In this document: positions 3,001 to 20,100 of the stretch, piece by piece
Layout of the letters: each line of letters begins with the position of its first letter
How positions within the stretch are numbered: the stretch's first letter is position 1
Notes under the pieces: model-generated
The model's database searches: none
The model's input: the letters and a program-made list of their open reading frames with translations, nothing else
What the model was told of the DNA's origin: nothing
Position numbers and translations under genes: made by a program
Assembly: GCF_007859865.1 (NCBI RefSeq)
Contig: NZ_SJPI01000002.1
Location: forward strand, 124,001 to 188,000
DNA from: Rubripirellula amarantea
GTDB taxonomy: Bacteria; Planctomycetota; Planctomycetia; Pirellulales; Pirellulaceae
Direction of reading: 5' to 3'
DNA length: 64,000 nucleotides

Positions 3001-6000
3001 GGCTGGCGGACGAATGGTCACGTCGATCGTTGCGGATCCGTTTGCGTTCCCGTTTTGCAGTCCCGCCGATACCAATTCACCGATCCGAGCTTCGGCGTTC
3101 AAGTTCGTCGCACTGAACCCGATTCCGGCGTGAAAGACCGGTGGCTCGGTCAGCTTGATTCGAGTTCGGTCGGTCACATCCTTTTCCGCCAGGCTAAGCG
3201 TTGGTCCGACAATCTTCCCGCCGCCGCTTTGATCTATTCCCGCCAACCCGAGCGTCACACCGATCAATCCGGTGGTGGCGTCGCTCGGATCCGCAGTAAC
3301 ACTAAACGTTGCGTCACCGGTAGCTTGGGTCAAATCCGTCATCACGAACTGCAACCGCGTTTCACCAATCACGTTCTCGCTAGTGCGCAACGACGTCAGC
3401 AAAATAACCTCGCCCTCATCGTTTCGAACTGTGAACAATGACGCCAGTTCGGATAGCGACATCGAGGGCGCAATCTTCGCTCTCAATTCGCCACTCGTTC
3501 CGTCCCGAAGCGTGTAGTTGACGCCGTAGTTGACGGCCGTGGGCAGTAGTGCAGACAAACCTTTCGACTGCAGATACTCGCCCACCGTGGTCGACGGATC
3601 GAGGTTGCCAGCCAACGGGCTCACTAGCAGCGGCGCGCTCTTCACTTCGGCGTTACGGTCCAAATCGATCAGCGAATCAAACCAAGCATTCATCAACGGT
3701 TGACGTAGGTTGGCGTAGATCGTGAACGGTTCTTGGCGATAACCCACCGGAGTTAAGTCTGACATGATGAACCGGCCATTCTCGAACCGGGTCTGCAAAT
3801 GCTCTTCGATGCCATCGCCTCGGAACTGCATCTCGTCAAGCACGTCTTGAATGGTCGACGTCGCGGTGAACTGCGGAAGATTAATCGTCGTTGCAACACC
3901 GTTCCCGAAAAAGATAAAGACCTCATCGGAAAGCACCGACTCGTCGTTCTGCAATAACGGCGAATTCTCACCGACGATCGCGCCGAGCGTCGTGCCGCTC
4001 TGCCAATGCGTGGTCGATAGCGACGGAGAAAGCAGATGGTTAGGATTATCGAAATCGTGCAAGAATTGGCCGTCGAAATTGATGAAGTTCATCGCGCGGA
4101 AAAAGATTCCGCCTTCCGCATCAGCAAGCTCGAACTCATCGTCGCCCGTAGGAACGGTGAGGTCTTCAAGTAAGAGTTGGTCACCCACTAGCGACGCACG
4201 CAGCACTAAGTTTCCGTCGTCGTCGGTTAGCGAGAGTCGATCTAAAAGTTCACCCCAAGTGATCTCGTCCGTGATTTCGCCTGTGGATATCGGAAGTTCG
4301 TCTCCGTTTCGCAATTTCACAGTCGCGTTGCTGGTCATGTCCTCGCGGACCAGCAATTGACGACGCATCGTGTTCATCACTAGCGAATCGGTGTTAATGG
4401 GAGGCAGACCTTTTTCCGGCAGCGGCGACACCAGCGGACTACCAACCAACTTAGCCTCACCCCCAACGCCGCTCGAATAGACGGAACCGATTGGAACGAG
4501 GCTACCCAGCCAAGCCGGTCCAACTAAACCGAGATGTTCGATTTCCATGACGCCGGTCTCGTTGCCTAAATAGGTGACAACAATGCGTTCATCGACGACT
4601 TCGGCTCGAGTAAGCTGAACTCCATCGCGGCGAATAGTAAGTTGTTCCAGTAGATTGCCCAACGAATGCCAACGAGGCGCGCTAACGTATGCTCCGCCGC
4701 CAATATCATCACCGGGAAGTCGGATGATGAGGTTGCTTGATGCCTCTTCCAAAAACGGACTGTTGTCGCCTAAAAATTCCGATAATGGAGCGTCTGCACC
4801 AAATAGCAGCGGGCTTCGTGTGACTAGTCCGGCTTCGATGACATTGGGGTCACTCTCGACACTTCCCAGCCCGAGCGCAAAGAGTGGGCCGTCAAACGTG
4901 GATGCGCTTAGCGTACCGGTTCCACCTGAGTAATCGTGGAATGTGAAACCACTGCCGTTGAACTTCAACTCGGCCAGTGGATCGCCGTTCGCTTTGAAGA
5001 AGCGATTTTGGCGTACCACGTCGGCGATCGTCGAGAAGTCAGGAAAGCCAGAAAGCAGATCCAAGACCTGACCGTTCCGCAACGTTACTTGTGCTTGCTG
5101 TTCCAAGTTCGAATCCGCGCCCTCGCGACGCAGTAAATCACCCACGTTAGTCCATGTGGGAGTTTCCTGGGCGAGATCAACGTAGATGCTTGGCCGTTCC
5201 AACGGTTCGAGTTGTTGGCCTTCGAGTCCCGAGAGTGATCGTCCGATGATCCGCTGGTCCTGATCCGTATCTACCTGCCCAACTACACCATTGATTGGGT
5301 CACCGAACAAGATGCTGTAGATTCCGATGTTGGGACTGACGTCGGAAATGCTCATGGTGGCGACGGAGGGCAGCGGAACGTCACCGTTGGTCAAGCTTTG
5401 ATCGACCAACACGAGTCGATCACTGCGGTCATCGATATCGGCCGCTAGCACAATTTGGTTCTGATCAACATCATCGTTGACGAACAGCGTCCCGATGATT
5501 TCACCGATGGTCGTATCCGCATTCAGGATGCCCGACGACACGGTTACCACGTCACCGCTGGCCAGTTGGACCGATGCAATGGATTCTTGCCCAAGCAACG
5601 ATTCGTAGGCGGTGCCGGAAAGCAATCGGCCAAGCGTTGTTGTGCGATCAACGGGGGCTTGTTCGTCGTAAGGCAGGTCACGGAATATCTGATCCGCTAC
5701 CAATTCATGGGCCGACCCAGTCGTCGATGCGGTTCCAATGGGCACTAAGCCCCCGATCTCGCGAAGCAAGCCGAGCCCAGAGTCTTTCCACGAGATCGAA
5801 AATGGATTGTCGTCGACGGCAGTTGAGAGATCGCGAAACACCAATGTGCCTCGCCGTTGCTCAATCGCTAAGTTGTCAACGGCGGCGGCGATGTCATGGA
5901 GGTCGCCGATGGTGGCGCCTTCAAGAGAACCCAAGTTGATTTCCTGTTGAGTGCCATCGCGGAAACGAAAGACCAGCGTTTCTAGGGGCGCCGATGTGTC

Positions 6001-9000
6001 AACACTGCCGTCGACAAAGTTACTAAGCGGAACGTCGTTGTCGCCAAGGCTGTATCCATACGACAGTGGTTGGCTACGTAGTTGTCCATCAAAGTCGCGA
6101 TCGGTATCCAACAAGCTTGAAAAAAGCGGCTGACGTTCGGTTTGGTACAGCGTGGTTTCACTTGGTGACTGAAGCTGGTAACCGAGATCCTGCAGAATGC
6201 CAAGGGTCAAAGGCGTGAACGATGACGGTTGTCGGTTTGAAGCGTCCAGTTCCGGCAACAATGTTTCACCGGTTCCCGCGTAAGCATTGGCGTCGACATG
6301 GATAAGCGAAGCAGATGCATCAAAGCCAGCGGGGTTGTGAATTGAAATGCGGTCTTCGGATAGTGGATTTGCGGCACGAGCATAGGCTCCCGAAAACTCG
6401 ATCGCGTCGCCTTGTGAAATCAAGCTTTGGCGTTGAGCATCGTTCAGGTCGTTTAGAGACTCGTCCGAACCACTGGGTTGAAGCAACCAATCGTAAGCAA
6501 ATGGTCGATCAGGAAATCGCAAATTACCTTGCGCCTCGATTCCCGAAATCACACCGAGTCCATGAAGAACCTCATGCAGCAGCACGCTGAAGTATCGATC
6601 GCCGCTTACGGTCTCGCTACCATCAATGCTGTAGTCATAATCGGATAACGAAACATCGGTGTTCAAATACACTTCAATGTCCGCAAGGGTGCGTGTTCGG
6701 TCGATCAGGTCCAATTGTTTGGCAAGGACCGGCGGGTAAACCGTTTGCGAAACATTCGCGTCGACCGGGTAGTGGTCTTCGGGTCGGGCCGCCGCAAGAA
6801 GATCTGCATTGGCGGTGAGTTCGGGAACAGCGGAGCCAGGATTTGGGTTGCCGGTTTCGCCTATGAACTTGAAATGCTGAAGTGAAATCCGCCATGTCTC
6901 ACCCGGGTACGAGGCCGCGAAAGTGGACTCGAGATAAGACTCAAGGCGTTCCAAGAACCATTGACGCACATCACCCACGGTTTGTTGGTTTGCTGGTATC
7001 TCGGGGCTGCGTAATTCCGGTGGAAAGATCGCGGTATCAAAAAAGCCGTAAGCTCCGCTGTCGAATAGCGTGATCTCGACGTCAACCGAACCGAAGTCTT
7101 GCGTCGGTGCCGACGTGTAGTCGCGGATCACAAAACGATTGCCTTCGTCAAAGCCGACGATGTCTGATCCATCGACTTCGTTGGCGGCAAAGCCGTAGGG
7201 AACCAATTCAAGTTCCATCACCAATTCGCCATCGCGTACCACTCGTCCTCGCTGAAGCCAGTCGCCCAACGTGGTGTGGGATTCGATGATTCCCATGTTG
7301 GCCGAAACGACGGATCCATCTTTGAGTTGAACTTGCAAGACCTGCTCGGTGCCAGCAAGGTGCGCTAGCCCTAAGCGTTCGAGCAGATCGATCACGGGCG
7401 TCCACAAGCGAGCGTTTTCCCCTGAGTTTTGCGCAAGGTCGCTCAATTCGATCGTATCTTTGGTGACATCAACGACCTCGCTAGCCTTGGCATTGTTGGA
7501 AAGGTCGATCTGCAACTGCAATCCGAAAGAAAGGTCTCGCGTTACTTCAAGTCGATTGTCATCAAGCGAATCGCCGGGCGTAGCCTGAATGGACCCGATC
7601 GGCGAATCACTGGCTCCGGCAATCAATGACAGGTTCGCCTGACTAACGATAGGGTCGGCAGCGCGAAAAAAGTCAAGCGACAAAGTCAGTAGTTGCGATT
7701 GTGGGTCATACGAAAACGCATCGCCTTGATTCGAATCGCTGACACCCGGAATAAGATCGATCATCTCTTGGATCGAATTGAAAGCCGGCAAGCCGTTGCC
7801 GTCCTTTAAGAACTGCAGCACCCCGCCGCTAAAGCCTTCCGCTAGTCCGAAAGCTTGGCCGAGCGTTAGATCCTCACTCAGCGGTAAAGGAAAGTTTAGC
7901 AAATCACCTTCTTGCCATGCCCCGAAAACACTGCCGAGCTGGTCGAGCGACGACAGGATGCTCGATGAATCGATCGTGTGAAAACCCAACAGCGATTCAG
8001 CGGTGTAATCAGCGTCGTTGGGAATTTCTAGGTTGACCTCAGGAAAGACCAGATCCAGCGGATTGGAATCCATCAACACAAAAGTCGGCAGCAAGCCGTC
8101 GGTTTCAAAACCAGCTAGGTCGAAGTCGAAGGGCAACCGAACATTCAATCCATCGCCGATGATCTCGAAATCTACGTCGTCAAGCAGCGATCCAAGAGAC
8201 AGCTCTTGCAGCGATTCCAAGGACACCGTTCCTCCGAGCAAGCTGCTGGTTTGAATTCGAAGTCCCAGATCCAAATCGAATGAGCCACCTGTTACACCAC
8301 CGGAAAGGAAACCCACGTTTGCAGCGAAGTCGATCGGAATACTTGCGGCTCGAGAAAGGTTGAGCTGCAGGTCGGGAATCGCGATCGAAAAGTTATCGGC
8401 CTCATCTCGAATGACATCGAAGTCGAAGTTTTCGAGCGACAGGTCAAATGGCAAGTCGAGCGATAGGGCGTCGCCCGGAATGGTGGAAAGCAAACTATCA
8501 CCGGCTGAGGTGATTGGGTCCAACAGGGCAGCAAGCGAACTTTCAAATTGCCTTTGCGGATCAAAGTTCAACTTCACGCCAATTTGGCCATTGGCCAGAT
8601 TGGTTGCTGGACTCAAAAAATCAAACTGGGCGATCAACTGAGCCGCCGACGCGGTGGGGTTGGAATCTAAGTAGTCTTCAAGCGGTTCGACCACTTCATT
8701 TTCGAATCGATCAGCGAGCTGAAACAACGATTGGATCGACTCCGTGTCGATGACGGTCGCACCGGCAATCGAATCGGGAATCAACGATCCAAGATAGGGT
8801 ATCTCAGCGGCAAACGCTGGTGCGCTGTTCACCGCACTGATCACGCGTGAAATTTCGGCGACCGCATCGCGCAAGCCGTTGGCGAAGGAGGCCGCTGCAT
8901 CGGTCGCGGCGGCGCCGAAACGCTCCGCTTGATCAACAACGTCTTCACCTTCGGCAAGAGTTTGGATGGTCAAGCCAGACGCTTGACTTTGCACCGAAAC

Positions 9001-9174
9001 GTCTGCCTGCAGCATTGTGATGTCGCCGGCGAGCATTTGACGCGGCTCGAGCAATTCGGCAAACGCTCTACGTCGCAACCCAGACGCGGACTTCGCAAAG
9101 CAAGTGCGGTCGTTCTCTTGTTTGATGCGGGATAGATAGCGGTGGCTACGAGACCGAAGAGGAATGGTCGTCAT
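1..9174 (-). CDS. Giant LEPR-motif surface protein with embedded metzincin-like metalloprotease segment (3' end outside window)
   Basis: Reading on the minus strand from ATG 9174, I found no stop in the stretches I translated down to base 1, so at least 3058 residues are encoded and the C-terminus is missing. The basic N-terminus leads into the planctomycete motif LEPRQMLAGD (about residues 41-50). Most of the protein is beta-rich modules with recurring short patterns (for example 'TTxGExL', 'LDLADLNL'). At residues 867-874 there is HEVLHGLG, preceded by an N-terminal flank (LADIEVYLN..) and followed by IHVDANAY (His959) and TLGILQDLGY. That order resembles HExxHGLG-type metzincin-like peptidases, in which His867, Glu868 and His871 would be zinc ligands and base; the classical third ligand at +10 is Ser, so His959 may serve. 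Near residue 2550 an EF-hand-like loop (DLNNDGAITLADVG) is visible. Probably a secreted or surface structural protein with possible proteolytic activity; substrate unknown. Confidence 0.85.
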   Translation of the reverse strand, partial: MTTIPLRSRSHRYLSRIKQENDRTCFAKSASGLRRRAFAELLEPRQMLAGDITMLQADVSVQSQASGLTIQTLAEGEDVVDQAERFGAAATDAAASFANGLRDAVAEISRVISAVNSAPAFAAEIPYLGSLIPDSIAGATVIDTESIQSLFQLADRFENEVVEPLEDYLDSNPTASAAQLIAQFDFLSPATNLANGQIGVKLNFDPQRQFESSLAALLDPITSAGDSLLSTIPGDALSLDLPFDLSLENFDFDVIRDEADNFSIAIPDLQLNLSRAASIPIDFAANVGFLSGGVTGGSFDLDLGLRIQTSSLLGGTVSLESLQELSLGSLLDDVDFEIIGDGLNVRLPFDFDLAGFETDGLLPTFVLMDSNPLDLVFPEVNLEIPNDADYTAESLLGFHTIDSSSILSSLDQLGSVFGAWQEGDLLNFPLPLSEDLTLGQAFGLAEGFSGGVLQFLKDGNGLPAFNSIQEMIDLIPGVSDSNQGDAFSYDPQSQLLTLSLDFFRAADPIVSQANLSLIAGASDSPIGSIQATPGDSLDDNRLEVTRDLSFGLQLQIDLSNNAKASEVVDVTKDTIELSDLAQNSGENARLWTPVIDLLERLGLAHLAGTEQVLQVQLKDGSVVSANMGIIESHTTLGDWLQRGRVVRDGELVMELELVPYGFAANEVDGSDIVGFDEGNRFVIRDYTSAPTQDFGSVDVEITLFDSGAYGFFDTAIFPPELRSPEIPANQQTVGDVRQWFLERLESYLESTFAASYPGETWRISLQHFKFIGETGNPNPGSAVPELTANADLLAAARPEDHYPVDANVSQTVYPPVLAKQLDLIDRTRTLADIEVYLNTDVSLSDYDYSIDGSETVSGDRYFSVLLHEVLHGLGVISGIEAQGNLRFPDRPFAYDWLLQPSGSDESLNDLNDAQRQSLISQGDAIEFSGAYARAANPLSEDRISIHNPAGFDASASLIHVDANAYAGTGETLLPELDASNRQPSSFTPLTLGILQDLGYQLQSPSETTLYQTERQPLFSSLLDTDRDFDGQLRSQPLSYGYSLGDNDVPLSNFVDGSVDTSAPLETLVFRFRDGTQQEINLGSLEGATIGDLHDIAAAVDNLAIEQRRGTLVFRDLSTAVDDNPFSISWKDSGLGLLREIGGLVPIGTASTTGSAHELVADQIFRDLPYDEQAPVDRTTTLGRLLSGTAYESLLGQESIASVQLASGDVVTVSSGILNADTTIGEIIGTLFVNDDVDQNQIVLAADIDDRSDRLVLVDQSLTNGDVPLPSVATMSISDVSPNIGIYSILFGDPINGVVGQVDTDQDQRIIGRSLSGLEGQQLEPLERPSIYVDLAQETPTWTNVGDLLRREGADSNLEQQAQVTLRNGQVLDLLSGFPDFSTIADVVRQNRFFKANGDPLAELKFNGSGFTFHDYSGGTGTLSASTFDGPLFALGLGSVESDPNVIEAGLVTRSPLLFGADAPLSEFLGDNSPFLEEASSNLIIRLPGDDIGGGAYVSAPRWHSLGNLLEQLTIRRDGVQLTRAEVVDERIVVTYLGNETGVMEIEHLGLVGPAWLGSLVPIGSVYSSGVGGEAKLVGSPLVSPLPEKGLPPINTDSLVMNTMRRQLLVREDMTSNATVKLRNGDELPISTGEITDEITWGELLDRLSLTDDDGNLVLRASLVGDQLLLEDLTVPTGDDEFELADAEGGIFFRAMNFINFDGQFLHDFDNPNHLLSPSLSTTHWQSGTTLGAIVGENSPLLQNDESVLSDEVFIFFGNGVATTINLPQFTATSTIQDVLDEMQFRGDGIEEHLQTRFENGRFIMSDLTPVGYRQEPFTIYANLRQPLMNAWFDSLIDLDRNAEVKSAPLLVSPLAGNLDPSTTVGEYLQSKGLSALLPTAVNYGVNYTLRDGTSGELRAKIAPSMSLSELASLFTVRNDEGEVILLTSLRTSENVIGETRLQFVMTDLTQATGDATFSVTADPSDATTGLIGVTLGLAGIDQSGGGKIVGPTLSLAEKDVTDRTRIKLTEPPVFHAGIGFSATNLNAEARIGELVSAGLQNGNANGSATIDVTIRPPAGQDYLTLKDLARSITNPHEYLDVDIDADLQFGTELVVDLAGLNDIPTNPNEIPRIDFVWENIITSQPALRLQPENLSFTTANFENLIQFGQLSVEDITNLIRKVVDLVERISGEGLLDRQLPLVNTSLGEVLDTVDYVADLVDRITTDPNASLNTLEVEIESLLGLLPEQFSLTYDLDEHILRADLDLNITNNTMASFNLDLADLNLSQLEGLVDFSTSGNVSVFADATLSAHLGLDLDDIALGTFDDAVVVFDTSGLTAGTRIAADDIAFTTSVLSIGVEVGPGRIVLDQDGLNFDGSTEDNTPATIGVKSRGTWQGGRKSLTELTASDFEFDFNPANASLGVDLPLTFLGQTEPLQVRWNDLSEFDFLVLSPPGTTIGDYSGTRPNVIAVPDVQGAVSNVSLGDGLIALAEGLQGLFGLIDDYLGDEVLGIPMPLIGEGLADAVSFVESFVAPLADELRGATFEEAVSTVGQSILFNTLGPGENGNGLGVLRDLNNDGAITLADVGITIDSDDEIAYAINIGRDGLSLSTPIDLDVGGSVLGLELDGDAMISAGYGLDLVVGFNRTQGPFLEFGTGTEIAVDFYAGVDDLVGEANLGPLQVQIATIDAAELTLAQRQAARIDSDDPNTEAINAIRGGFGLDFPAGRYTLSSLGTALNSVSVTSEFVGSLHTRIHTGINTSIDGIPSLVADLHLNFDPATGSLASVFDSLTTPGVTLTNVGLDLGSFVSNVLAPVLGPVNDFLDPIRPVLDKLTTPIPGISDLIGPTTFTDLIGVFGQGGESVGQFVEAVQNIVTLIDIPTNAETIILPLGNFDTTLDEFGALVPVPMGGQTNFDDFLDTVGEDVAEMRDYLRNIPQEAPQYTSGGELMTTPGKFSIPLLQDPTSAIGLLFGNDVDLLKFQAPRLEASFDFSVSIPVFPVFSLAIGGQFSTAIDFAFGYDTSGIRQYAETNRAADLLNGFFFDDRAVYSGGAKVSDVPELTFRFAVTAGGQLDLQVAKA

Positions 9175-9775
9175 GGCAGGACCTGTTGCGTGCGAACTCG
9201 AAATCGAGCTGCAATGACAACGAAAGCAAGACTCGAGAACGCAGATGGGGCGGCATAGTGAGCGGGTAAATTCTGCGTCTCCTTCGGTCGAGGGAGAGCA
9301 CTGTCCCTACCTTAAGTCATCACACCGCTCCCCTCAACGAAACTCTCGGTGGATAAAGGGTTTATCGCTGATTGAATGCGACCATTGGAAACGCACTGCG
9401 CTGAAAATGGGGTACGCATGGGCATGTGCATGCATGTGCAGTACAGACGCATGCGTTCAGAGAGCAGATCGGGAACTCGATTGAGTCACCAAGTTGCGCA
9501 TCGACAATGAATCTCGATCCTCACTGGCGTAAGAAACGGTCCGTCGAGCGCTGATAGCTGGCAAGCGTTAAGCACCAACGCGCCCTATAGAATTGTCACA
9601 AAGACGGGCTGGGCAGCTCGTTGTGTTTACACGACCACCGAACCAAAGCGATTAGGTTGTGATCGCCGCGAGAGCAGGCTTCCAATCAATAGCTTGCGAA
9701 CGTTAGCTCCCGAACGTTTGCTTGCGAACGTTAGCTCCCGAGCGTTTGCTTCCGAGCGATGGCGAAGCGGCAGCT
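9175..9775. other. 600-bp intergenic region upstream of the giant gene
   Basis: No credible gene is seen; the short reading frames have no recognisable protein character. It must hold the promoter and leader of the giant gene starting at 9174. Its right end carries a 28-bp tandem repeat (9692-9758). A GCATG-rich stretch lies at about 9415-9455. I could not identify a convincing terminator for the response-regulator gene. Confidence 0.6.
9692..9758. repeat. 28-bp tandem repeat, about 2.4 copies
   Basis: Units at 9692-9719 and 9720-9747 differ at one base, and a partial third unit follows from 9748. Each unit contains two AACGTT- or AGCGTT-centred half-palindromes. It lies about 20 bp beyond the stop of the response-regulator gene. 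Function unknown; it may simply be a microsatellite-like expansion. Confidence 0.85.
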
Positions 9776-10192
9776 TTACTTCAGCTTGGGCAGTTCCGCG
9801 CCCTGGCTGTATGATTTCAGAACGCCAATCAAGTGTGATAGTTGAGGCTTGGTAAAGTAGCCGGCAACGTTTTTCTCGTACGCTCGCTCGACGTCACGAG
9901 CATGAGACGACGTGGTCAGGACGAAGACCGTGGTGGACCGGAGCGTGTCATCATTGCGAAGCCGTTCCAGAAACTCGTGCCCATTGACCCCAGGCATGTT
10001 CAGGTCGAGAAACACAATCAGAGGATGCTCTTTAGCGATCGACAACTCATTGTGAAGCATCGACAGAGCGGACTTTCCGTCAACGGCCCGCTCGAGCCGA
10101 ACCGGAACGTCGCTCTTCTTGAATGCCCGATTCACCATTTCAGCGTCGAGGTCATCATCTTCGACTAGGAGTACTGTGAACATGTTAGGCAC
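9776..10192 (-). CDS. Single-domain response regulator (CheY/Rcp1-like)
   Basis: The 138-residue protein is one receiver domain with no output domain. The acidic pocket is EDDD at residues 11-14, the phospho-acceptor is Asp63 in FLDLNMPG, the conserved Thr is at 93-94 (VLTTSS), and Lys115 lies in YFTKP. Rcp1-type stand-alone regulators of this shape usually receive phosphate from a cognate histidine kinase and act by protein-protein contact. The kinase gene directly upstream on the same strand (10437-12455, 244 bp away) is the obvious partner. Output is unknown: with no DNA-binding domain it cannot act directly as a transcription factor. Confidence 0.93.
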   Translation of the reverse strand: MPNMFTVLLVEDDDLDAEMVNRAFKKSDVPVRLERAVDGKSALSMLHNELSIAKEHPLIVFLDLNMPGVNGHEFLERLRNDDTLRSTTVFVLTTSSHARDVERAYEKNVAGYFTKPQLSHLIGVLKSYSQGAELPKLK

Positions 10193-10436
10193 TTGAATGC
10201 TCGCTTGAAGATTGCTGGATCAACCACTTAAACCTATCGTTTTATCGGCCAACCAACAACGAAGCGGTATCATAAAACTTCGCAATTATCCAATGAAAGT
10301 CGATCATTTTGCCGTTTAATGCCGTTTAACGGCTATTGGTGCCGTGGATGGAGCGGCCATTTGCCGGAAACCGCAGTTTGAAAACTCAGGGGAAGTCTCT
10401 AGTTCATGGCTGCGTAAATAGCGCGGATCTATCGTT

Positions 10437-12455
10437 TCAACTGGGCGTCTGAACCCGGTTCCATTGAAACGAGAACACCGAGCCTTTGCCTTCTTCGGAC
10501 GTTAGCTTCAGGTTGGATCCGTACTTGGCTATCAGTTTCTTAACAATCGCAAGCCCCATTCCGCTTCCACCTTCGACATCCGTTGCAACGCGTTGGTACA
10601 TCTCGAAAACGCGGTTAAGGTGTTCCGGTGCAATGCCGCGCCCGTTGTCGGACACTTGAATGAGGATGCTGGTGTCACCGACGTTCTCGGCACTGACGGT
10701 GATGCGACCCGAGGATCCTTTGTCGTTGTACTTGACGCCATTGGTGATCAGGTTGAGCAGCACTTGGGTCAGGGGCGTTTTCATTGTCGTGAATTCCAAA
10801 GACCGTTGTGGCAGTTCGATGGAGAACCCTTTGGGAAGGTCAATCATCGACACGATCGAACTAACGATATCGTTGATGTCGACGGTTTCGGGCGCCAGAT
10901 TCATTCGTCCCGCACGCGAATATTGAAGCAGATCATCGAGCAAGTTTTCCATCTTGGTCGCGCGTTCATTCATTTGGATCAAGTGTGCCTTCGATCCCTC
11001 GGGCAACAGGTCTTCGCAATCCTCTTGAATCCAACTTGCCAAATGCTTGATGCCTCGCAATGGAGAGCGAAGGTCATGCGATGCGACGTACGCGAAGTTA
11101 TCAAGTTCGAGGTTGGTTTCTTCCAACGCCGAAGCCTTGGCGGCAAGCTCTTGGGTCATCTTCTCGGACATCAGCAGCAGTTGCTTGGTCACTTGGTTCT
11201 TGTCGCTGAAGACTTGAGCAGCCTGAGCTAACTTTCCAATCTCGTCTTTGCGATTAAGCAAAGGAATCTCGCTGACCGAATCGCCCTGGCCAAGCTGACG
11301 AAACGTCTCGGTGATTCGAAAGATGGGATTCACGATCAGGTACGTCAACTGCATTGCCATCAAGATCGCGAAAGCGGCCGCCGCGACCGATGCGAGCATC
11401 GCGTAGATACGAGATCGTCTCGCTAGTTCAGCCATTGATTGTCGATTGATCACGCGTTGGTCTTCTGAATAATCCTTCAAGCGTTTGGATCGATAGACAA
11501 ACTCGGATATCTCGCCTGCCATCACGACGTTGGAATAGAACATGTATCCCCGAGTCGCCTGAACGGCGCGAGATCCAAGACGCCGAAATTCGTTCAGCTC
11601 TCGTTCAAGCTTGTCAAGCGTCGCGTTCACTCGTGTGGTTGGGCCGTCATTTGCGTTCTCGGCTTCGTCGTTGTTCACGGCGTCGTCAAAGTCAGCGTCG
11701 TCAAGAGTTTCATCGAAGGTGCTTTCCGATAAAGCGACATCGTCTTGAATGAGTTGGCGGATCGTGGCGAGTGCTTGTCGCGATTCTCTGATTGACTGAA
11801 GTCCGAGTGTGAAGTCGACCGAATCTGGTTCCGTGAAATACTGCTGGAAGAGTTGGCGAGAGTTCGACTGAGACTTGACCAAGCGAAGGTAGGCTTTGAA
11901 CAAGTCCTCGCGATCGTCGGCAAGGATGGCGGATTCGAGTTGCTGCAAAGACTCGGTGACGTCGAAATCCTGTTTCGGCAGTTCAACCTTGATGAGCCTG
12001 GTCCGCAGTTCTCGCTCTGTCGACGCAAGATCTAGCCGTTGAGCAAAGATCGCAAGCGACTCGTTCATCGCTTGTAGCGTCGCTTGCATTTGTTCGTCTT
12101 GGGAAAGTTTCAACGCCGACGCAATTTGGTTCTTCAGTTGAACATGCAGTTGCTTAGCGCGAGAAAGCTGAGACATGGCTCCGGTTTGCAGATACTTTTC
12201 GGCCCTCGTCTTCAATTCCTCGACGTCCCGATCCATGCTCGCGATCTCGACCAATTGAACCTCGGATTGCTCGTACGACTGAAACTGCTCGAGTAACTTG
12301 GACTGTCCCCACCATCCAATCAACGTGCTTAGCAAACAGAGGGCCACAAGAACCGACACCGTCAAGTAAATGCGGTTTCGCAAAGACGGCGTCGGCAGCA
12401 GCGTGGGGGCGGTGGGGAGCTGCGAATCTATCGTCGCAGGGTTTTCAAGAGGCAT
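10437..12455 (-). CDS. Membrane-bound sensor histidine kinase with large periplasmic helical domain
   Basis: 672 residues. TM1 is at about 27-50, a roughly 300-residue, mostly helical, Gln/Glu/Leu-rich periplasmic region follows, then TM2 at about 350-375 and a HAMP-like linker at 375-425. The cytoplasmic part has a HisKA domain with phospho-acceptor His460 (ASHDLRSPLR) and a HATPase with N (NLITNGVKYND), G1 (VSDNGRGI) and G2 (GSGMGLAI) boxes. The subtype with NFAYVASHDLRSPL commonly pairs with Rcp1-like regulators, as found just downstream. The helical periplasmic domain between two membrane helices, together with a binding-protein gene 62 bp upstream, is reminiscent of TorS/TorT-type sensing; this is inference from layout, not from sequence identity. 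An acidic insert (residues 245-268) interrupts the periplasmic domain. Confidence 0.93.
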   Translation of the reverse strand: MPLENPATIDSQLPTAPTLLPTPSLRNRIYLTVSVLVALCLLSTLIGWWGQSKLLEQFQSYEQSEVQLVEIASMDRDVEELKTRAEKYLQTGAMSQLSRAKQLHVQLKNQIASALKLSQDEQMQATLQAMNESLAIFAQRLDLASTERELRTRLIKVELPKQDFDVTESLQQLESAILADDREDLFKAYLRLVKSQSNSRQLFQQYFTEPDSVDFTLGLQSIRESRQALATIRQLIQDDVALSESTFDETLDDADFDDAVNNDEAENANDGPTTRVNATLDKLERELNEFRRLGSRAVQATRGYMFYSNVVMAGEISEFVYRSKRLKDYSEDQRVINRQSMAELARRSRIYAMLASVAAAAFAILMAMQLTYLIVNPIFRITETFRQLGQGDSVSEIPLLNRKDEIGKLAQAAQVFSDKNQVTKQLLLMSEKMTQELAAKASALEETNLELDNFAYVASHDLRSPLRGIKHLASWIQEDCEDLLPEGSKAHLIQMNERATKMENLLDDLLQYSRAGRMNLAPETVDINDIVSSIVSMIDLPKGFSIELPQRSLEFTTMKTPLTQVLLNLITNGVKYNDKGSSGRITVSAENVGDTSILIQVSDNGRGIAPEHLNRVFEMYQRVATDVEGGSGMGLAIVKKLIAKYGSNLKLTSEEGKGSVFSFQWNRVQTPS

Positions 12456-12517
12456 CGTGATTCTATTTCGAAGGGTGAGGCAGGTTGAAAGGTGGCATCA
12501 GGCCGATCGGGTTGTTC

Positions 12518-13900
12518 CTACCCTGAAAGAAACTCGTTCCAGCGAGTCAGGCTGTACTCGTAAGTTGGCATCACCGTGTTCCAAACTGCGATGTTGCTGA
12601 ACCTGCGCTCGTAGGATCCGCCGTCCCTTGAAGCGCCTTTGTTGACGACAACCTTTCCTTGAGTCCCCAACAAATCAGTTCGTGCCGGTTTGCCTTCGTA
12701 CCAATAATCCCATTCATCCGCCGTCAATTCTTTTCGCGAACGCTGCGGATTGGAAATGTAGTAGCCTTGTTTCGCGATGAAGGCACCCGGCCACCCTGAA
12801 AGCCACCAATTCATGTACTCGTACGCCGCATCTTTGACGTCACCCTGGGCCGCAACTGATAGACACATCACGCCATGCCATGCGCGGTAGCCTTCGACCG
12901 GCGACGCGTACACGCAGTCAACTCCTTGGGCTTTAAGGTCAAACACGGCTGGCGAGAACATGCTTTCCACGACCGATTCACCGCTCTTCATCAATTCGAC
13001 CGACGCTGGAACGCTGCTCCAGATGCCCCGGAAGTGACCCCGACGACGGTAGGTCATCAGGATGTCGAAAAGTTCATCAAGTTTGGACCGGCTGATATTG
13101 CCGATGTCATCAAACTCAATCAAACCTTTGGCTTGGGCTGCTAGGGCGAGATCAAACAAGCCGATCGTGGGCGCGTTCACGATCGCGACCTTCCCTTGGT
13201 GTTGTTCATCCAACAACCAACTCCAGCTTTCGGTTTCATAGGGAATCCCACGCGGAATCTTTCCCGCGTCGTATCCGAATGAATCCACATTGTGAACGTA
13301 CGGCAGAAAGCTGACTTTCGATGTTTCGTTTCCTCCCAAGGCTCCATCGGGCTGAACGAACAACAAACGATTGGGTGCATCACCTGCGCCAATCTTGGCA
13401 TTGGGAGTTAAGCGCCCGGTGGTGGTCAATTGGTTGATCTCGGACCAGTACCGTAGACGCTTCGTTTCAATCGGTTGAATGGCACCCACTTGCCACAGCA
13501 CCCGCATGCTGTTGGACCATTGCTCGTAAAGGTCGAATGATTCCGGTCGCGTCGAAGCACGGTGCAATACCTCAGCACTCCCGCCCGGCGAAAACTGCAA
13601 CTCGATACCGAGATCCGCTTCGGCTCGTTTGCGCAGGTCCTCCTGGAGAGTCACGTGGGTCCCCAATACTCGCACGACGCGGCGCTTCTTGCTCAGGATT
13701 GTTGGTCCCTGAGTCGGTTCTGGTTTCGCCTTCGGCTTAGAATCCGTCGCATGTTTGTCTTGAGCCGAGGTGGCTGAACCCCTGGCGAGGGTCGTCGCTA
13801 ACGCCAAGCATCGAGCTGTATGATTCAACATCGATCGACGACTGAGTTTCGACGAAGGCGTCGTGGCCGAATGAAAACGGCGTGGGGTCGGTAGCGTCAT
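12518..13900 (-). CDS. Spermidine/putrescine (PotD)-type extracellular substrate-binding protein, orphan
   Basis: The frame is open from 13975, but I place the start at ATG 13900 (MTLPTPRRF), which has an AGGA-type site about 10 bases upstream; this gives 460 residues. The N-terminus carries a twin-arginine-like leader (SRRSMLNH followed by a hydrophobic stretch and an Ala-rich end). The body has the signature of family-1 periplasmic binding proteins of the PotD group: an RVLGTHVT first strand, a FDLYEQW segment, NVDSFGYD, and WSWLLDEQHQGKVAIVN. No ABC permease or ATPase gene is adjacent; instead a histidine kinase and a response regulator follow on the same strand. That context suggests a ligand-sensing role rather than uptake. 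Ligand unknown; a polyamine is a guess from family only. Confidence 0.85.
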   Translation of the reverse strand: MTLPTPRRFHSATTPSSKLSRRSMLNHTARCLALATTLARGSATSAQDKHATDSKPKAKPEPTQGPTILSKKRRVVRVLGTHVTLQEDLRKRAEADLGIELQFSPGGSAEVLHRASTRPESFDLYEQWSNSMRVLWQVGAIQPIETKRLRYWSEINQLTTTGRLTPNAKIGAGDAPNRLLFVQPDGALGGNETSKVSFLPYVHNVDSFGYDAGKIPRGIPYETESWSWLLDEQHQGKVAIVNAPTIGLFDLALAAQAKGLIEFDDIGNISRSKLDELFDILMTYRRRGHFRGIWSSVPASVELMKSGESVVESMFSPAVFDLKAQGVDCVYASPVEGYRAWHGVMCLSVAAQGDVKDAAYEYMNWWLSGWPGAFIAKQGYYISNPQRSRKELTADEWDYWYEGKPARTDLLGTQGKVVVNKGASRDGGSYERRFSNIAVWNTVMPTYEYSLTRWNEFLSG

Positions 13901-14084
13901 GCTGCTGAAATCCTGAGTGCATCGTAGAAAGAGGATCGGGATTATCCGCGATCGAGCCTCCTGAGTCACCATCATTCGTAACCACCGAGTCCAGTGACGC
14001 TTTTGCCAAGGAATGTCGGCCCAAATGCGGATATCCGAAATAGTTCACAAAAAGTTCTGATTCGGTGACAGACTCAATCGTCCT

Positions 14085-15452
14085 GTGTGTGAAGTGAGTA
14101 TCCCTTTTGCACATTCGATACGGAGCCTAGTGGTGGAAACTCGTACTCAATTCCTCATCAACTCGCGAGAACATCAATCCATTTCGGGGCGCAACTGGGG
14201 CGTTTGGGGATTGGCACTGCTGGTTTGGCTTGGTGGCAATGGAGTCAAGACTCGAGCGGCAGGCATGGTTTCAGTGCATGGGGTGGTGACCGACGAATCT
14301 GGTGAACCCGTATCCGACGCTACGGTGGTTGCGATTCAAAAGACATGGCCGCGTGGTCGCTTTCAAATGAATACTTTGAGCACTCGAACCAACGAGAAAG
14401 GCGCGTTTCGTTTCGATGATTTCGCGACTCGCGGTCGGCCATACGAGTTCTTGTTAACGGCGATGCCAGATAGGCACTGCATGGTGAGTGAATACCGTGG
14501 TGATCGAAACGGCAAGTCACAGCCTGCGGTTAAGCTACGAGTCACTCCTTCAGAACCAACTCGGATCACGCTCACCGATACGAAAGGTGTGCCGTTGCCT
14601 CACGCCAAGGTCATTCCGCTCACTCGCATCACGGCCGACGGTTCTGAGCACAAGACTTATCCCATTGAAATGAAAGATGTGGGAATCACCGCCAACCATT
14701 CCGGAGTAGCCGAACTGCACGCGTTCTTGCCAGGCGAAAAGGGTAAGTTGATGGTTGAGTACCACGGGAACATCAGCGAGCACGCGATCAACATCCCCTC
14801 GGACCAACGGCTAGAAGTTGCGATCGAAGCAGTCGAAGGACGAGTGATGGAGGGGGCGACCGACAAGGACGTGGTGGATTCGAATGCACCGTCGCTAGGT
14901 CGTGTGGTAAGTTCGTCAGGCCAACCAATCGCTGGTGCAAACGTGTTGCTTGTCTTGAAGACTTGGCCGGACGGTCGATTCCGTCAGCAGGTCTTGCAAA
15001 CAGAGTCAGGTCGCGATGGGAACTTCGCATTGTCGAAGATGCCAGGACAGGCCGACAAGAAAGCTCTATTGGTGACGATCTTGAAGCAGGGGTATGAAAT
15101 GACCAGTGAGTATCGCACCTTTGGCAAAGGCGAGGCGATCGACTCATTCGAATTTACGCTCGAGAATGCGTTGCGAGCGAAGTTTCGCTTTGTCGATAAA
15201 CATGGCGAATCGCTTGGCAAGACGCGTGTCTTTATCGCTCGCAGAAAAACGCCTGATAAAGAACACATGATCTACGCTCAAAGCGGTGCTGACGCCACCT
15301 TTACGACCGACGACTTAGGGAACATTGACCTTGCTTTCTTTCAAGTTGGCGACGTGGTGCGATTCATCGTTCAGGTCGACGGTAAACCCATCGAAGCCAC
15401 GGCGACCATCACGGCGGAACCAACCCAACGAGTGGTTGTGTCGGAATCCTAA
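14085..15452 (+). CDS. Secreted protein with two carboxypeptidase-regulatory-like domains
   Basis: 455 residues from GTG 14085; GTG 14130 or 14133 would place the hydrophobic stretch GVWGLALLVWLGG closer to the N-terminus and may be the true start. After the signal-like segment come two related beta-sandwich domains, each beginning GxVxxxxGxPxxxAxV (GVVTDESGEPVSDATV and GRVVSSSGQPIAGANV) and each containing TWPxGRF and a later SEYR. This internal duplication is typical of carboxypeptidase-D regulatory-like folds common in planctomycete secreted proteins. No catalytic domain is attached. It is convergent with the sulfotransferase gene (20 bp between stops) and divergent from the binding-protein gene. 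Role unknown; probably exported carbohydrate- or protein-binding scaffolding. Confidence 0.8.
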   Translation: MCEVSIPFAHSIRSLVVETRTQFLINSREHQSISGRNWGVWGLALLVWLGGNGVKTRAAGMVSVHGVVTDESGEPVSDATVVAIQKTWPRGRFQMNTLSTRTNEKGAFRFDDFATRGRPYEFLLTAMPDRHCMVSEYRGDRNGKSQPAVKLRVTPSEPTRITLTDTKGVPLPHAKVIPLTRITADGSEHKTYPIEMKDVGITANHSGVAELHAFLPGEKGKLMVEYHGNISEHAINIPSDQRLEVAIEAVEGRVMEGATDKDVVDSNAPSLGRVVSSSGQPIAGANVLLVLKTWPDGRFRQQVLQTESGRDGNFALSKMPGQADKKALLVTILKQGYEMTSEYRTFGKGEAIDSFEFTLENALRAKFRFVDKHGESLGKTRVFIARRKTPDKEHMIYAQSGADATFTTDDLGNIDLAFFQVGDVVRFIVQVDGKPIEATATITAEPTQRVVVSES

Positions 15453-15472
15453 TTGCCGCCTTTCGACGATTG

Positions 15473-16219
15473 CTACTCTAGCGGCGCACCGAATTGGCCA
15501 GCGCCAAACAAGCGATTGATTTCGGCCAAGTTCGGGAGCAGGCGGTAAGTTTCGGTCGAATTGACCTTGTTAGAATCGTGGTCCAATTTCGCAGCGACCT
15601 TTTCAATGTAAGCGTTGCTCAAGTCATTCCCGACCACCGAACGAACCAACTCCAACGTGATCTCGAGTCGTTGGGAAATCGAAACGTTTTCGCCGAACAG
15701 GTCTTCGTACACGATTCGCCTGCATTGGTGCCCGGTTTCGTGTTGAGCCAAAAAAGCATTGGTTTGGGCAATCGCCGTACCCTGAGTATCGAGGTACTCG
15801 GCAATCCGATTGAGGTCGAGCGGTTCTAGTGGTTGGTCCTGCATACGCGGCGCACCACGGCGATGCCATTGCAGAGTCTGTTCGGCGATCAAGGAAGAAG
15901 CGACCGCCTGCAATTGATTTCGCCTGACCATAAAGAACTTGGTTGGGAAGAAAGCGAACACTTCCAAGTCTTGTTTTAGCGTCAGTTGCCCCAGCAGGTG
16001 CTTTACACCATTGGACGTCTCTTTCAAGTCTTGCAGGATGTCAGGCAATTGCTGACCAGCATTCAAGTCAGCCAGGAAATCATATCCCCATCCATCGGAC
16101 CCTCGTGTAGGGTTGAATGGTTCGTTGAGTACAGAGAGCCTTGGGTGAAGGTCGAAGATATCTCGGATCGCCGTGCTGCCCGATCTGGGATGTGCAAGAA
16201 GGACCAAGCTAACATTCAT
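15473..16219 (-). CDS. Sulfotransferase-family protein
   Basis: 248 residues starting at ATG 16219. The N-terminus contains the 5'-phosphosulfate-binding loop (HPRSGSTAI, residues 10-18), and a 3'-phosphate-binding-like segment (MVRRNQLQAVASSLIAEQ) lies around residue 97. FNPTRGSDGWG and the C-terminal region fit the Stf0/NodH-like bacterial PAPS-dependent sulfotransferases. It would transfer sulfate from PAPS to a carbohydrate or lipid acceptor that cannot be deduced. Sulfated polymers are prominent in the biology of marine planctomycetes (family knowledge). The gene starts 6 bp after the end of the decayed kinase gene on the same strand, so it may have been co-transcribed with it. Confidence 0.85.
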   Translation of the reverse strand: MNVSLVLLAHPRSGSTAIRDIFDLHPRLSVLNEPFNPTRGSDGWGYDFLADLNAGQQLPDILQDLKETSNGVKHLLGQLTLKQDLEVFAFFPTKFFMVRRNQLQAVASSLIAEQTLQWHRRGAPRMQDQPLEPLDLNRIAEYLDTQGTAIAQTNAFLAQHETGHQCRRIVYEDLFGENVSISQRLEITLELVRSVVGNDLSNAYIEKVAAKLDHDSNKVNSTETYRLLPNLAEINRLFGAGQFGAPLE

Positions 16220-17170: not shown

Positions 17171-20100
17171 TCAGAACAGCGTGTCCTCATTCCATTCGGA
17201 CTCGGAAGTTTCGGTGGGATCCGTCTTGTCGTCGTTCAACTCGGGCCACTGCGAAAACGCGAGATCGATGTGCTCTGTTTCGGCCGGTGGTTGCTGGCGA
17301 GCGATCTCGTTGATGATCTGAAGAGCATCGAGGGCGGTGGCGTGGTTGTCACCGTTGACGTCGTAGTAGCGATCGTCAAAATCGTCCAGGCTGGTGATCT
17401 CGGAAAGTTCGGATGTGTTTTGTCGAGCGATTCGATTGATGACCTGCAGGGCATCGAGCGAGGTGATGTCTCCGCTACGATTGGTGTCAAAGCGGTTGGC
17501 GGCGTTTTGCCATGGCGTGCCTGACACGATTTGAATGACATACTCGCCCGCTTGAATGACCTGCCGAAACTCATCGTCGACCATGATCGGTGGTTGAGAA
17601 GCGATTTCGCCTTCGATGGCGAAGGATGCTGTTGTCGATTTGCGAACGACGAGCACGCCTTCTGGGTCAACGAGTTGATCGAGGTGTTGCACATCGAGTC
17701 GGATCGACGACTCGCCGCCGAGCACAAAAGCTTCGAAACCGATAATGCTTTCGCCGACAAGGGACGTGATGTCAATCGCAAGGTTCGCGTCAATTTCCAG
17801 AGTGTCGTACCCTTCGCCTCCGTCGAGTAAGACAAAGTTAGGTGTTCGCAACGTCACCCAGTCATCACCGCCTGCGGTTCGCACGTTGATCGTGCCCGTT
17901 GTATCCGGCAAGCCTTCCACTACGAACGTTTGGGAAGAATCGCTGGTGGTGACATCAAGTCCATCGGCGAGCAGTTCTTGTTGAATTACCACGTCCAAAT
18001 CAACATCGCTCACCGTCACGTGGGTTTCGTTCGCGGCAATCACCAGCGAACTGGGTTGGTAGTCTTCCACCACCACGTCAATGCTGGTTCCAATCCCATC
18101 AAACAACGCCGCGGTATCAGCGTCGCTTGCCGTCAACAAAATCGTAAACGTTTCGGATGGCTCGGCGATCAAATCGATGGGCGACTGTAGCGTGACGGTT
18201 TGAGCGGTATTCCAGTCTTCAGGTGTGAACGTCAATTCGGTTGGCATCACCATTAGCTCATCGCTATCAGAGCTAACCGCGATCGTAACATTGCCCAAGG
18301 GCTGAGCCGACAAACGAACGTCAAACGATCCCGCCTCGATGGCCTCGGAAAACGTCAGCAGTCCTTCACCGGCAATGCTGACAACGATCGCAGGAACCTC
18401 ATCGTCATTGATGGTCATGCCGATCGTCGATGAAAGTGTTTCGTCATTAATGACCTCGATGGTGACATTCCGGTTTCCATCGGCGATCTGGTTGTCGCTT
18501 ACCGCGACATCGACCAACACAGACGAACTTCCCGTCGGGATCACGATTTCTTCTGGAAGCGTGATATCGGCGTTGTCAGCGCTAAGGGTCAAATTTAACG
18601 GTTGCGCGAGCGTTTCGTAGTTGTGATGAACCAGCAGCGAGGTGGCGGCAGATTCACTCACCACGTCATTGACCAGGGTTAGCGTCAGAGTGGGGGCATC
18701 ATCGTCTTCCACAGTCAGCGATCCCGAAGCCGAGAAGAACCCTTCAGCAGACGCAGTAAACTCAACTATCTTATCGCCGTCCACCCAAGAGTCATCAACC
18801 ACAGGGATAGGGAACGAGACGCTTGTTTCGCCGGCCGGAATGACCACTCGCGTCGGCAGAGTAACTTCGGTTTCGTCGCCGCCACCAATCATGACTTCCA
18901 ATGCATCGGTGGTATCCGAATTGCGACGAGTGACGGTGGCCATCGGAGCGAGGCTGTCCGAGGCCTGCGTCAAGATTACGTTGTCGATGGCAAAGTAGGC
19001 TGGCGTGTTCATCCCAAATTGCCCCACGTCCGATGACATCAACGAGAACGTCAACGACCGAGCGCCCACCAATTCCGATACGTCCACGGTGGTCCACTGG
19101 TCCACGATGTAATCAAGCGATTGATCGTCGAACCGAAAGTCGGCCAAGTAGAAGTCGATTGCGCCAACGGATTCTCCCAGCGCATTGGTGCCTGCGATGG
19201 TGAGCCGGAAAAAGTCAGGATTGTCTCCACTTTCGCCGCCGAATTGCTTTGCGAAAGCATCACCAAACTGCATGGACAATGCTGCGTAGGTTGCGTTGGT
19301 GATGTCAAGAGACGCGAATGACTGCGAGGGATCTGTCAACGTTAACGTAGGAGGCGTAGTGCCGAACGTGTTGGCAACGGCATAGGTCGCCGACGCCAGG
19401 GCGCCGGAACCTGTGATCGCGCTGTGTTGATTGGTAAACCCAGCGGTTTGCGAATCAGTCACATTGGAAATTGCGAATCCGCTCCACGATCCAAAGTCTG
19501 TGTTGTAGTCGTTGTCCAACATGACCCCGCCTGCGTCAAAGCCGCCCGCCAGATCAGAACCATTGTTGAATGACTCTGCGGCGATGTGAGATCCGAGTTC
19601 CTCGAAGTCAACGGTTGTGCGAGCGCCTGCTTCGCTAACGACGGATTCGGTCAACTGGACTTCAAGGGCCGGGCGTAACGTATCGTCGTCGTTGACAACA
19701 AGAACCACTTCGTCCGAAAGTTCACCGCTGACCGCCGTAATTGTCAACGTCCGGTCGTCTTCGATTTCGTCATTGTCGATCAACGAGATGTCGAACGAAA
19801 CCGTGCGCAGCCCGGCCGGGATTGTCACCGTAGTGGGAACCGTGGCGACGGTTGAGTCGGATGATCCAAGCGTCACCTCAAGTGGCGAAGTCAAATCATC
19901 GTCGTTCCGGTGAAGCACTGCGGAAAGGCTGCCGGTATCTTCGAACGCTTCAAGTGCGGATAGCGTTAGCGAAAGCGATGGTGCGTCGGCATCCGCGACC
20001 GTAAGTTCAGTCGTTGTTCCCACGTATCCATCGGCATCGATCGAAAGAGTAACCGATTGCAATCCGTCGACGATGAGGTCGGGGGTGATGCTAATTGGAA

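Follow-up and report, generated by a model that had tools for sequence, protein, structure and literature searches.

A solute-binding protein, a helical sensor kinase and a lone receiver form a probable two-component receptor in Rubripirellula amarantea

Bacterial solute-binding proteins usually aid the uptake of nutrients; in PgtC-PgtB-PgtA, LuxP-LuxQ, ChvE-VirA and XylFII-LytS, a binding protein signals through a kinase. In TorT-TorS-TorR, the trimethylamine N-oxide receptor of Escherichia coli, TorS is a hybrid kinase (receiver and Hpt) and TorR is a DNA-binding regulator. Here we describe a stretch of 64,000 nucleotides (nt) from the 6.9 Mb genome of Rubripirellula amarantea, hereafter the window, in which the genes for a solute-binding protein (SBP), a sensor histidine kinase and a lone CheY/Rcp1-type receiver follow one another (Table 1). 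From its sequence, this trio is very probably an SBP-dependent two-component receptor. By 2022, some ten sensor kinases activated by an SBP had been characterised (excerpt of PMC9602780), and 10 of the 11 characterised SBP-kinase couples are encoded together (excerpt of PMC11113362). The general mark of such kinases, an SBP gene adjoining a kinase with an extracytoplasmic sensor, was found in the window and in nearly all the related loci described below.

The trio is read in the order SBP, kinase, receiver, with gaps of 62 nt (SBP-kinase) and 244 nt (kinase-receiver). The SBP start is uncertain: the first ATG gives 13975, and an alternative start at 13900 corresponds to the in-frame Met-26. 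Pfam found no receiver fused to the window kinase and no output domain on the window receiver. The phosphorylation residues of the receiver are intact (E11/D12/D13, D63, TTS from 93, K115), and a PDB sequence search placed RcpB (1k66, E 1.6e-16), RcpA (1k68, 2.1e-15) and Rcp1 (1jlk, 6.4e-13) among its best solved relatives. Stand-alone, close to phytochrome regulators and with its phospho-residues kept, it fits the Rcp1-type response regulators, in agreement with the initial annotation of this DNA. The same annotation had described a PotD-type binding protein, a helical kinase and a lone receiver without transporter genes; this description stands for the three minus-strand open reading frames (ORFs) and their Pfam domains, and inspection of ORFs and Pfam matches found no ABC transporter genes adjoining the trio in the window.

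Table 1. Features of the window and of related regions (TM, transmembrane segment).
Feature	Position	Strand	Details
Solute-binding protein (SBP)	12518..13975	minus	ORF from first ATG, 485 amino acids; Pfam SBP_bac_8, E 2.9e-10
Sensor histidine kinase	10437..12455	minus	672 amino acids; Pfam HAMP, HisKA, HATPase_c
Kinase layout (residues)			TM1 ~24-52, helical ectodomain ~50-345, TM2 ~348-381, HAMP 371-412, HisKA (H460), HATPase_c; from hydropathy, H-box and Pfam
Conserved sensor motif VQATRGYMFYSNVVMAGEISE	11502..11564	minus	kinase residues 298-318; sensor alignments
Lone CheY/Rcp1-type receiver	9776..10192	minus	138 amino acids; Pfam Response_reg alone
Signal-less SBP-fold relatives	L105:7636-11633, L106:6225-10215, L107:7641-10212, L108:7603-11591, L110:7672-11641

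How general is the pairing of SBP and sensor? A pattern scan of 84,980 species genomes yielded 283 SBP relatives, and the analysis was carried out on the best 80 of the 283, at 57-77% identity. Carriers among these best 80 belong to the Planctomycetes (with Phycisphaerae), Gamma-, Alpha- and Zetaproteobacteria, Verrucomicrobiae, Lentisphaerales, Holophagae, Hydrogenedentota, Desulfobulbaceae, Helicobacteraceae and others; single taxon assignments may be wrong because many carriers are metagenome-assembled genomes. In 78 of the 80 loci, a sensor-domain frame starts at most 400 nt past the SBP end or overlaps the SBP, and the count was reproduced with a profile made from the window and eight order relatives alone, which contained none of the 80 loci. 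Within the same order, the SBP is present in 9 of 146 genomes, the window's included, and the next same-strand gene is a kinase with a homologous ectodomain in all eight relatives; besides the pair, gene clustering found only seven clusters shared among the nine order stretches, each in two loci. Phylum-wide, the SBP was found in 9 of 392 genomes, including three carriers already in the earlier sample (the window, G071 and G088), and all nine have the sensor. Because the adjacency recurs in the order, the species scan and the phylum, it is more than chance.

The two proteins also diverge together. Over 67 dereplicated pairs and ectodomain columns only, SBP and sensor distances correlate with r = 0.74, whereas 2000 label shuffles gave at most 0.12; the correlation is uncorrected for shared descent, which contributes to r. 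Before trimming to the ectodomain, when sensor boundaries ran into the kinase in 17 of the 67 sequences, r was 0.72. Mean identity across phyla is 63% for the SBP and 22% for the ectodomain. Could the SBP gene nevertheless be a mere neighbour, without functional link to the kinase? There is a precedent: AgtS and AruS were reported not to be bound by the SBPs of the genes next to theirs (excerpt of PMC11113362, 2024), so gene neighbourhood alone can mislead. A chance neighbour would hardly recur over many phyla and in largely different order neighbourhoods, with correlated divergence, and we regard this explanation as extremely unlikely. With most characterised couples encoded together and the AgtS and AruS counterexamples on record, the case that neighbourhood makes for a working SBP-kinase couple is strong, if not proof.

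In the window kinase, two hydrophobic segments flank an ectodomain of ~300 residues that is predicted to be all-helical (AlphaFold2 (AF2) model, mean pLDDT 75.9). In this model the sensor is a double four-helix bundle resembling that of McpS, its residues 62-332 matching the McpS HBM structure 2yfb (Z 18.5, rmsd 2.1, 232 aligned residues, 12% identity). For mostly helical models that lack a clear match, the notes of the fold-search tool give a best Z of ~14, which the present value exceeds. Pfam HBM (PF16591) does not appear among the families listed for 65 sensors at E <= 0.01 (25 of 28 listed), but the match in fold is strong. TorS has been described as two stacked four-helix bundles (excerpt of PMC8534201); the hhalign alignment of a 67-sequence profile of our sensors with E. 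coli TorS spans 338 columns, the transmembrane parts among them, at a probability of 80%, and TorS chains are not among the 50 fold matches listed for the ectodomain model. With the whole model, the kinase core dominates the 50 Foldseek matches listed, and a search of viral folds returned mainly viral and phage kinases at the top. Within the conserved motif of the ectodomain (Table 1), V310 and E318 are invariant in 65 sequences (the 67 dereplicated pairs minus L015 and L020), and R302 and V311 are conserved at at least 90%.

This ectodomain is kept while the outputs behind it change between kinase, hybrid kinase and, in 3 of 65 proteins, diguanylate cyclase. By Pfam, 60 of these 65 proteins have HATPase_c, 57 have HAMP, 27 a fused receiver, 6 Hpt and 3 GGDEF. 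Four planctomycete loci (L017-L020) carry the H-box AHEINTP, which we take to be NtrB-like. A receiver lies within 450 nt of 27 of the 38 kinases without a fused receiver, the window's included, versus 9 of the 38 hybrids, seven of these nine being in similar Pseudoalteromonas loci (Fisher p 7e-5); after dereplication, the counts are 22 of 31 non-hybrid kinases versus 3 of 27 hybrids (Fisher p 4e-6), and both tests are uncorrected for relatedness. The counts derive from 89 loci, four of which had no usable kinase sequence; of the remaining 85, six with a contig end within 450 nt were set aside, and the three GGDEF loci stand outside the two-by-two table. Lone and fused receivers are thus complementary, so that the receiver of the window is most simply the detached counterpart of a fused one and the trio, besides the pair, is a recurring unit.

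What does the SBP bind? The window SBP is likely exported by way of a weak Tat-like (twin-arginine translocation) signal: its SRRSM motif is present and its hydrophobic stretch is weak, and a regular expression found the strict RR motif in 57 of 86 family members; among the 29 without it, L019 is truncated. In the PDB, the SBP profile matches polyamine binders, PotF among them, at E about 1e-8 to 1e-5, a relation by which the PotD/PotF superfamily assignment is correct. Together with the SBP_bac_8 match, it upholds the PotD-type family of the initial annotation at the level of the superfamily; identity to PotD is only 18%, and the protein belongs to a distinct clade. These relations could be read as those of a polyamine receptor like NspS-MbaA, with the PotD-like SBP binding norspermidine, spermidine or a relative, and the GGDEF domains on 3 of 65 homologous sensors, as in MbaA, would fit. 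In PotF, the aromatic box consists of W37, W244 and F276, and the amine-side residues include D39, D247, E185 and D278, carboxylates at least 96% conserved in PotF orthologues (excerpt of PMC8666671). When aligned, the receptor SBP family reads T, F and W at the aromatic box, which is thus partly kept (F340, W366), and replaces D39, E185, D247 and D278 by Val, Ala, Ala/Gly and Gly, respectively. Its own invariant residues are R364, R450, R458, H228, N229 and D231. The loss of the four carboxylates, with W37 replaced by Thr and the low identity to PotD, argues against a cationic diamine or polyamine as ligand. We therefore rejected polyamine sensing, which the initial annotation had put forward and which we now consider quite improbable; the SBP of the receptor lineage probably reports a non-polyamine chemical from the surroundings.

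Relatives of the SBP outside the receptor lineage bear on both its ligand and its separation from transport. A control sample of 321 genomes of the class to which a Pseudoalteromonas belongs, one of them the chosen centre, contained 10 matches: three of the receptor type (E < 1e-210), six of a second type (~1e-103 to 1e-111) and one weak partial match. A sensor lies beside the SBP in all three receptor-type loci and in none of the six second-type loci; PotA- and PotB-like genes adjoin the second-type SBP in all six. This ABC-linked type is ~36% identical to the receptor type and differs from it near the aligned pocket, at positions 150, 153, 155, 228, 367 and 371. On plasmids, the second type is encoded in an operon ATPase-SBP-permease-permease in all six regions examined, with a hydantoin or Asp/Glu racemase gene next in five (L137 is without). 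A third type, 46% identical to the receptor type, shows no signal peptide by eye in 6/6 proteins, has an amidase in all six regions and is encoded after a CobW-type GTPase (Pfam-tested in L105 and L107, annotated as a GTP-binding protein in three more, judged by eye in L106). In the SBP tree, which does not include L130, the receptor SBPs form one clade (69 tips, support 0.86), with the signal-less type as sister (1.0) and the racemase-operon type outside (0.68).

The neighbourhoods of these relatives have features of their own. At about 6800-11930 of L138-L142, a conserved operon runs GntR / ATPase-SBP-permease-permease-hydantoin (or Asp/Glu) racemase, followed in L138 by an amidase, and the importer is annotated merely as PotD/PotF family or extracellular solute-binding protein. 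The genes of the signal-less relatives directly follow those of the CobW-type GTPase and of a protein of ~100-110 amino acids (starting MCxLCGVxGG in L105 and L106), and their regions often hold, besides the amidase, a deacetylase (allantoinase-like in L105) and SDRs. A permease in L106 was judged NCS1-like by eye. The signal-less relatives may represent an enzyme or carrier with the SBP fold, cytosolic and metal-dependent, that belongs to an operon for heterocycle catabolism; a literature search on the CobW/amidase operon turned up no paper.

Because the gene neighbourhoods of the transport-linked and the cytosolic relatives suggest such compounds, a cyclic amide or ureide comes into question as ligand. 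In one version, the co-receptor model holds and the ligand belongs to the hydantoin class, a cyclic amide, ureide or amino-acid-like compound, as may be the case for the ABC-linked sister clade. The racemase genes after the permeases and the amidases near the cytosolic relatives, some with the allantoinase-like deacetylase and one with the NCS1-like permease, speak for it. The sister clade is, however, just 36% identical and differs at the six pocket-region positions, the ligands of the sister clades are themselves putative, and no catabolic gene adjoins the pair in the window. We consider this specific version unlikely, if a good deal less so than a polyamine ligand.

Does the SBP still serve an importer? 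Dual-role SBPs exist, BctC with BctE being an example (excerpt of PMC9602780), and the kinase might merely regulate or monitor uptake through an ABC importer encoded elsewhere. The window genome has six BPD_transp_1 hits, permease domains of other kinds, one of which the SBP might therefore serve; its best PotC-like match is weak (E 1e-3, 20.6 bits). No second homologue of the receptor SBP was found in that genome, whose two other SBP_bac_8 proteins did not match. Neither strand of the 80 loci showed a frame resembling PotB, PotC or the sister permease; flanks longer than 5.5 kb on both sides are available for only 57 of these loci. The initial annotation had held that a permease and ATPase encoded elsewhere and co-evolving with the SBP would speak against a sensor. 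With the first of the two sister permeases as the one query, the sister-type permease was not found at E <= 1e-5 in 13 of 17 receptor-carrying genomes, the window's included, and was found in the other four, three of which gave 32-34% identity at E about 1e-31. A transport role is judged improbable, no cognate permease having been found in the trio loci or, for the sister type, in the window genome. An SBP with its kinase and without a transporter is well supported because SBP and sensor are so regularly paired, because the ABC-linked relatives form a separate clade and because the sister permease is missing in most receptor genomes; an importer elsewhere is, in our estimate, quite doubtful. 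Conservation of the trio without ABC genes, a check proposed with the initial annotation, is likewise borne out by the sensor pairing, the lone receivers of the non-hybrid kinases and the absence of such permease-like frames.

Several observations weigh against an SBP-dependent receptor that is free of transport, besides the AgtS and AruS precedent, the four genomes with a sister-type permease, the limited flanks of the loci and the relatedness that enters the correlation and the Fisher tests. The sensor is missing in two of the 80 loci, L079, where the contig ends 556 nt on, and L082, and no receiver lies nearby in 11 of the 38 kinases without a fused one. An ATPase-like frame occurs in three of the 80 loci. 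In the order relative L018, an ABC cluster (oriented 12399-15541, opposite strand) lies just downstream of the kinase and convergent with it; of the other seven order stretches, only L015 gave a further PotA-like match. Finally, the AF2 model of the SBP, built from 9 sequences, is of low confidence (pLDDT 35), and its pocket was judged by alignment only.

How would the trio work? The exported SBP would capture a small molecule in the periplasm and dock on the helical TorS/McpS-like ectodomain of the kinase. Helix movement would then pass via HAMP to the kinase core, which would change phosphotransfer to the lone Rcp1-type receiver; the receiver may act through protein contacts or a phosphorelay. 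More broadly, we tentatively propose, with slightly less than even confidence, that one SBP lineage gave up transport and became a dedicated co-receptor for a single conserved non-polyamine signal, plugged via a fast-diverging TorS/McpS-like ectodomain onto interchangeable outputs (kinase and lone receiver, hybrid, NtrB-like, diguanylate cyclase). Such a signal would be some small molecule that many bacteria, largely aquatic ones, have in common; it may belong to the cyclic amides or ureides. Should one and the same ligand serve all carriers, it would indicate a signal, so far unrecognised, that very distant bacteria share. With its dozens of orthologous pairs, the sensor-less ABC-linked sister clade as a natural negative control and an SBP far more conserved than its receptor, the family opens both the ligand and the interface of SBP and sensor to direct testing.

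The surroundings of the trio in the window comprise a CarboxypepD_reg-like protein, a sulfotransferase-like protein (below cut-off), a TPR-like ORF and giant extracellular proteins. The nearest named relatives and the Planc_extracel signals are in keeping with a planctomycete genome. An open frame at 1-9174 (minus strand), cut by the window edge, has at least 3058 codons and starts ~600 nt after the receiver gene; at E <= 1e-3 Pfam matches it solely to the planctomycete extracellular signal (Planc_extracel), below the cut-off of that family. At 17171-22753 (minus strand) lies a gene for an extracellular protein of 1860 amino acids, which contains three DUF4465 stretches as well as a dockerin type I domain. 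By eye, the motif TAAACGGC is repeated at about 10290-10350, in the gap between the kinase and receiver genes; it may be regulatory, since these two genes overlap in several other loci. Short tandem-like repeats, GCTAACGTTCGCAAGC / AAACGTTCGGGA, were seen by eye at about 9690-9760, just downstream of the receiver gene. Promoter and terminator scans gave chance level only. A defence-system reading was discarded, as the one PADLOC match, of SduA to the receiver, is weak (16.9 bits) and was attributed to chance.

How does the trio compare with the known systems? PgtC-PgtB-PgtA, LuxP-LuxQ, ChvE-VirA and XylFII-LytS differ from it in having other SBP families, sensors or regulators. With TorT-TorS-TorR it shares a periplasmic binding protein and, as predicted from the model, an all-helical sensor kinase. 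Unlike in TorS and TorR, Pfam shows neither a fused receiver nor Hpt in the window kinase and no DNA-binding domain in the window regulator, and the receptor SBP profile (86 members) shows no relation to E. coli TorT (hhalign probability 0.1%, E 0.52). The TorT-TorS-like logic with an unrelated SBP family that the initial annotation had proposed is supported by the McpS HBM fold match, the alignment with TorS and this lack of relation to TorT.

The PotD/PotF-family SBPs of the ABC/racemase operons belong to the same extended clade and have a Tat-like signal in the members inspected; they differ in the ATPase and permease alongside, in the six loci as in the six plasmid regions, and in having no sensor beside them in the six loci. 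The nearest relatives found, a sister clade, are the SBP-like proteins encoded in CobW/amidase operons of Rhizobiaceae, Halomonas, Paraburkholderia and Roseateles, which are set apart by the lack of a visible signal peptide and by the CobW-type GTPase alongside. As in NspS-MbaA of Vibrio cholerae and Sinorhizobium meliloti, where a PotD-like gene lies beside and overlaps a membrane-receptor gene (excerpt of PMC9993111), an SBP gene of this superfamily is joined to a receptor gene, and some homologues here share GGDEF with MbaA. MbaA is a GGDEF-EAL protein, whereas no EAL is among the 25 of 28 Pfam families listed for the 65 sensors; the window partner is a histidine kinase and the polyamine carboxylates, as judged against PotF, are missing. 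In the literature covered, which is partial and leaves most subscription papers outside, no paper was recognised from its title and the start of its abstract as describing this receptor family. The trio would work like TorT-TorS and NspS-MbaA and belongs to neither: its SBP is unlike TorT and lacks the polyamine residues, and its kinase carries no fused receiver.

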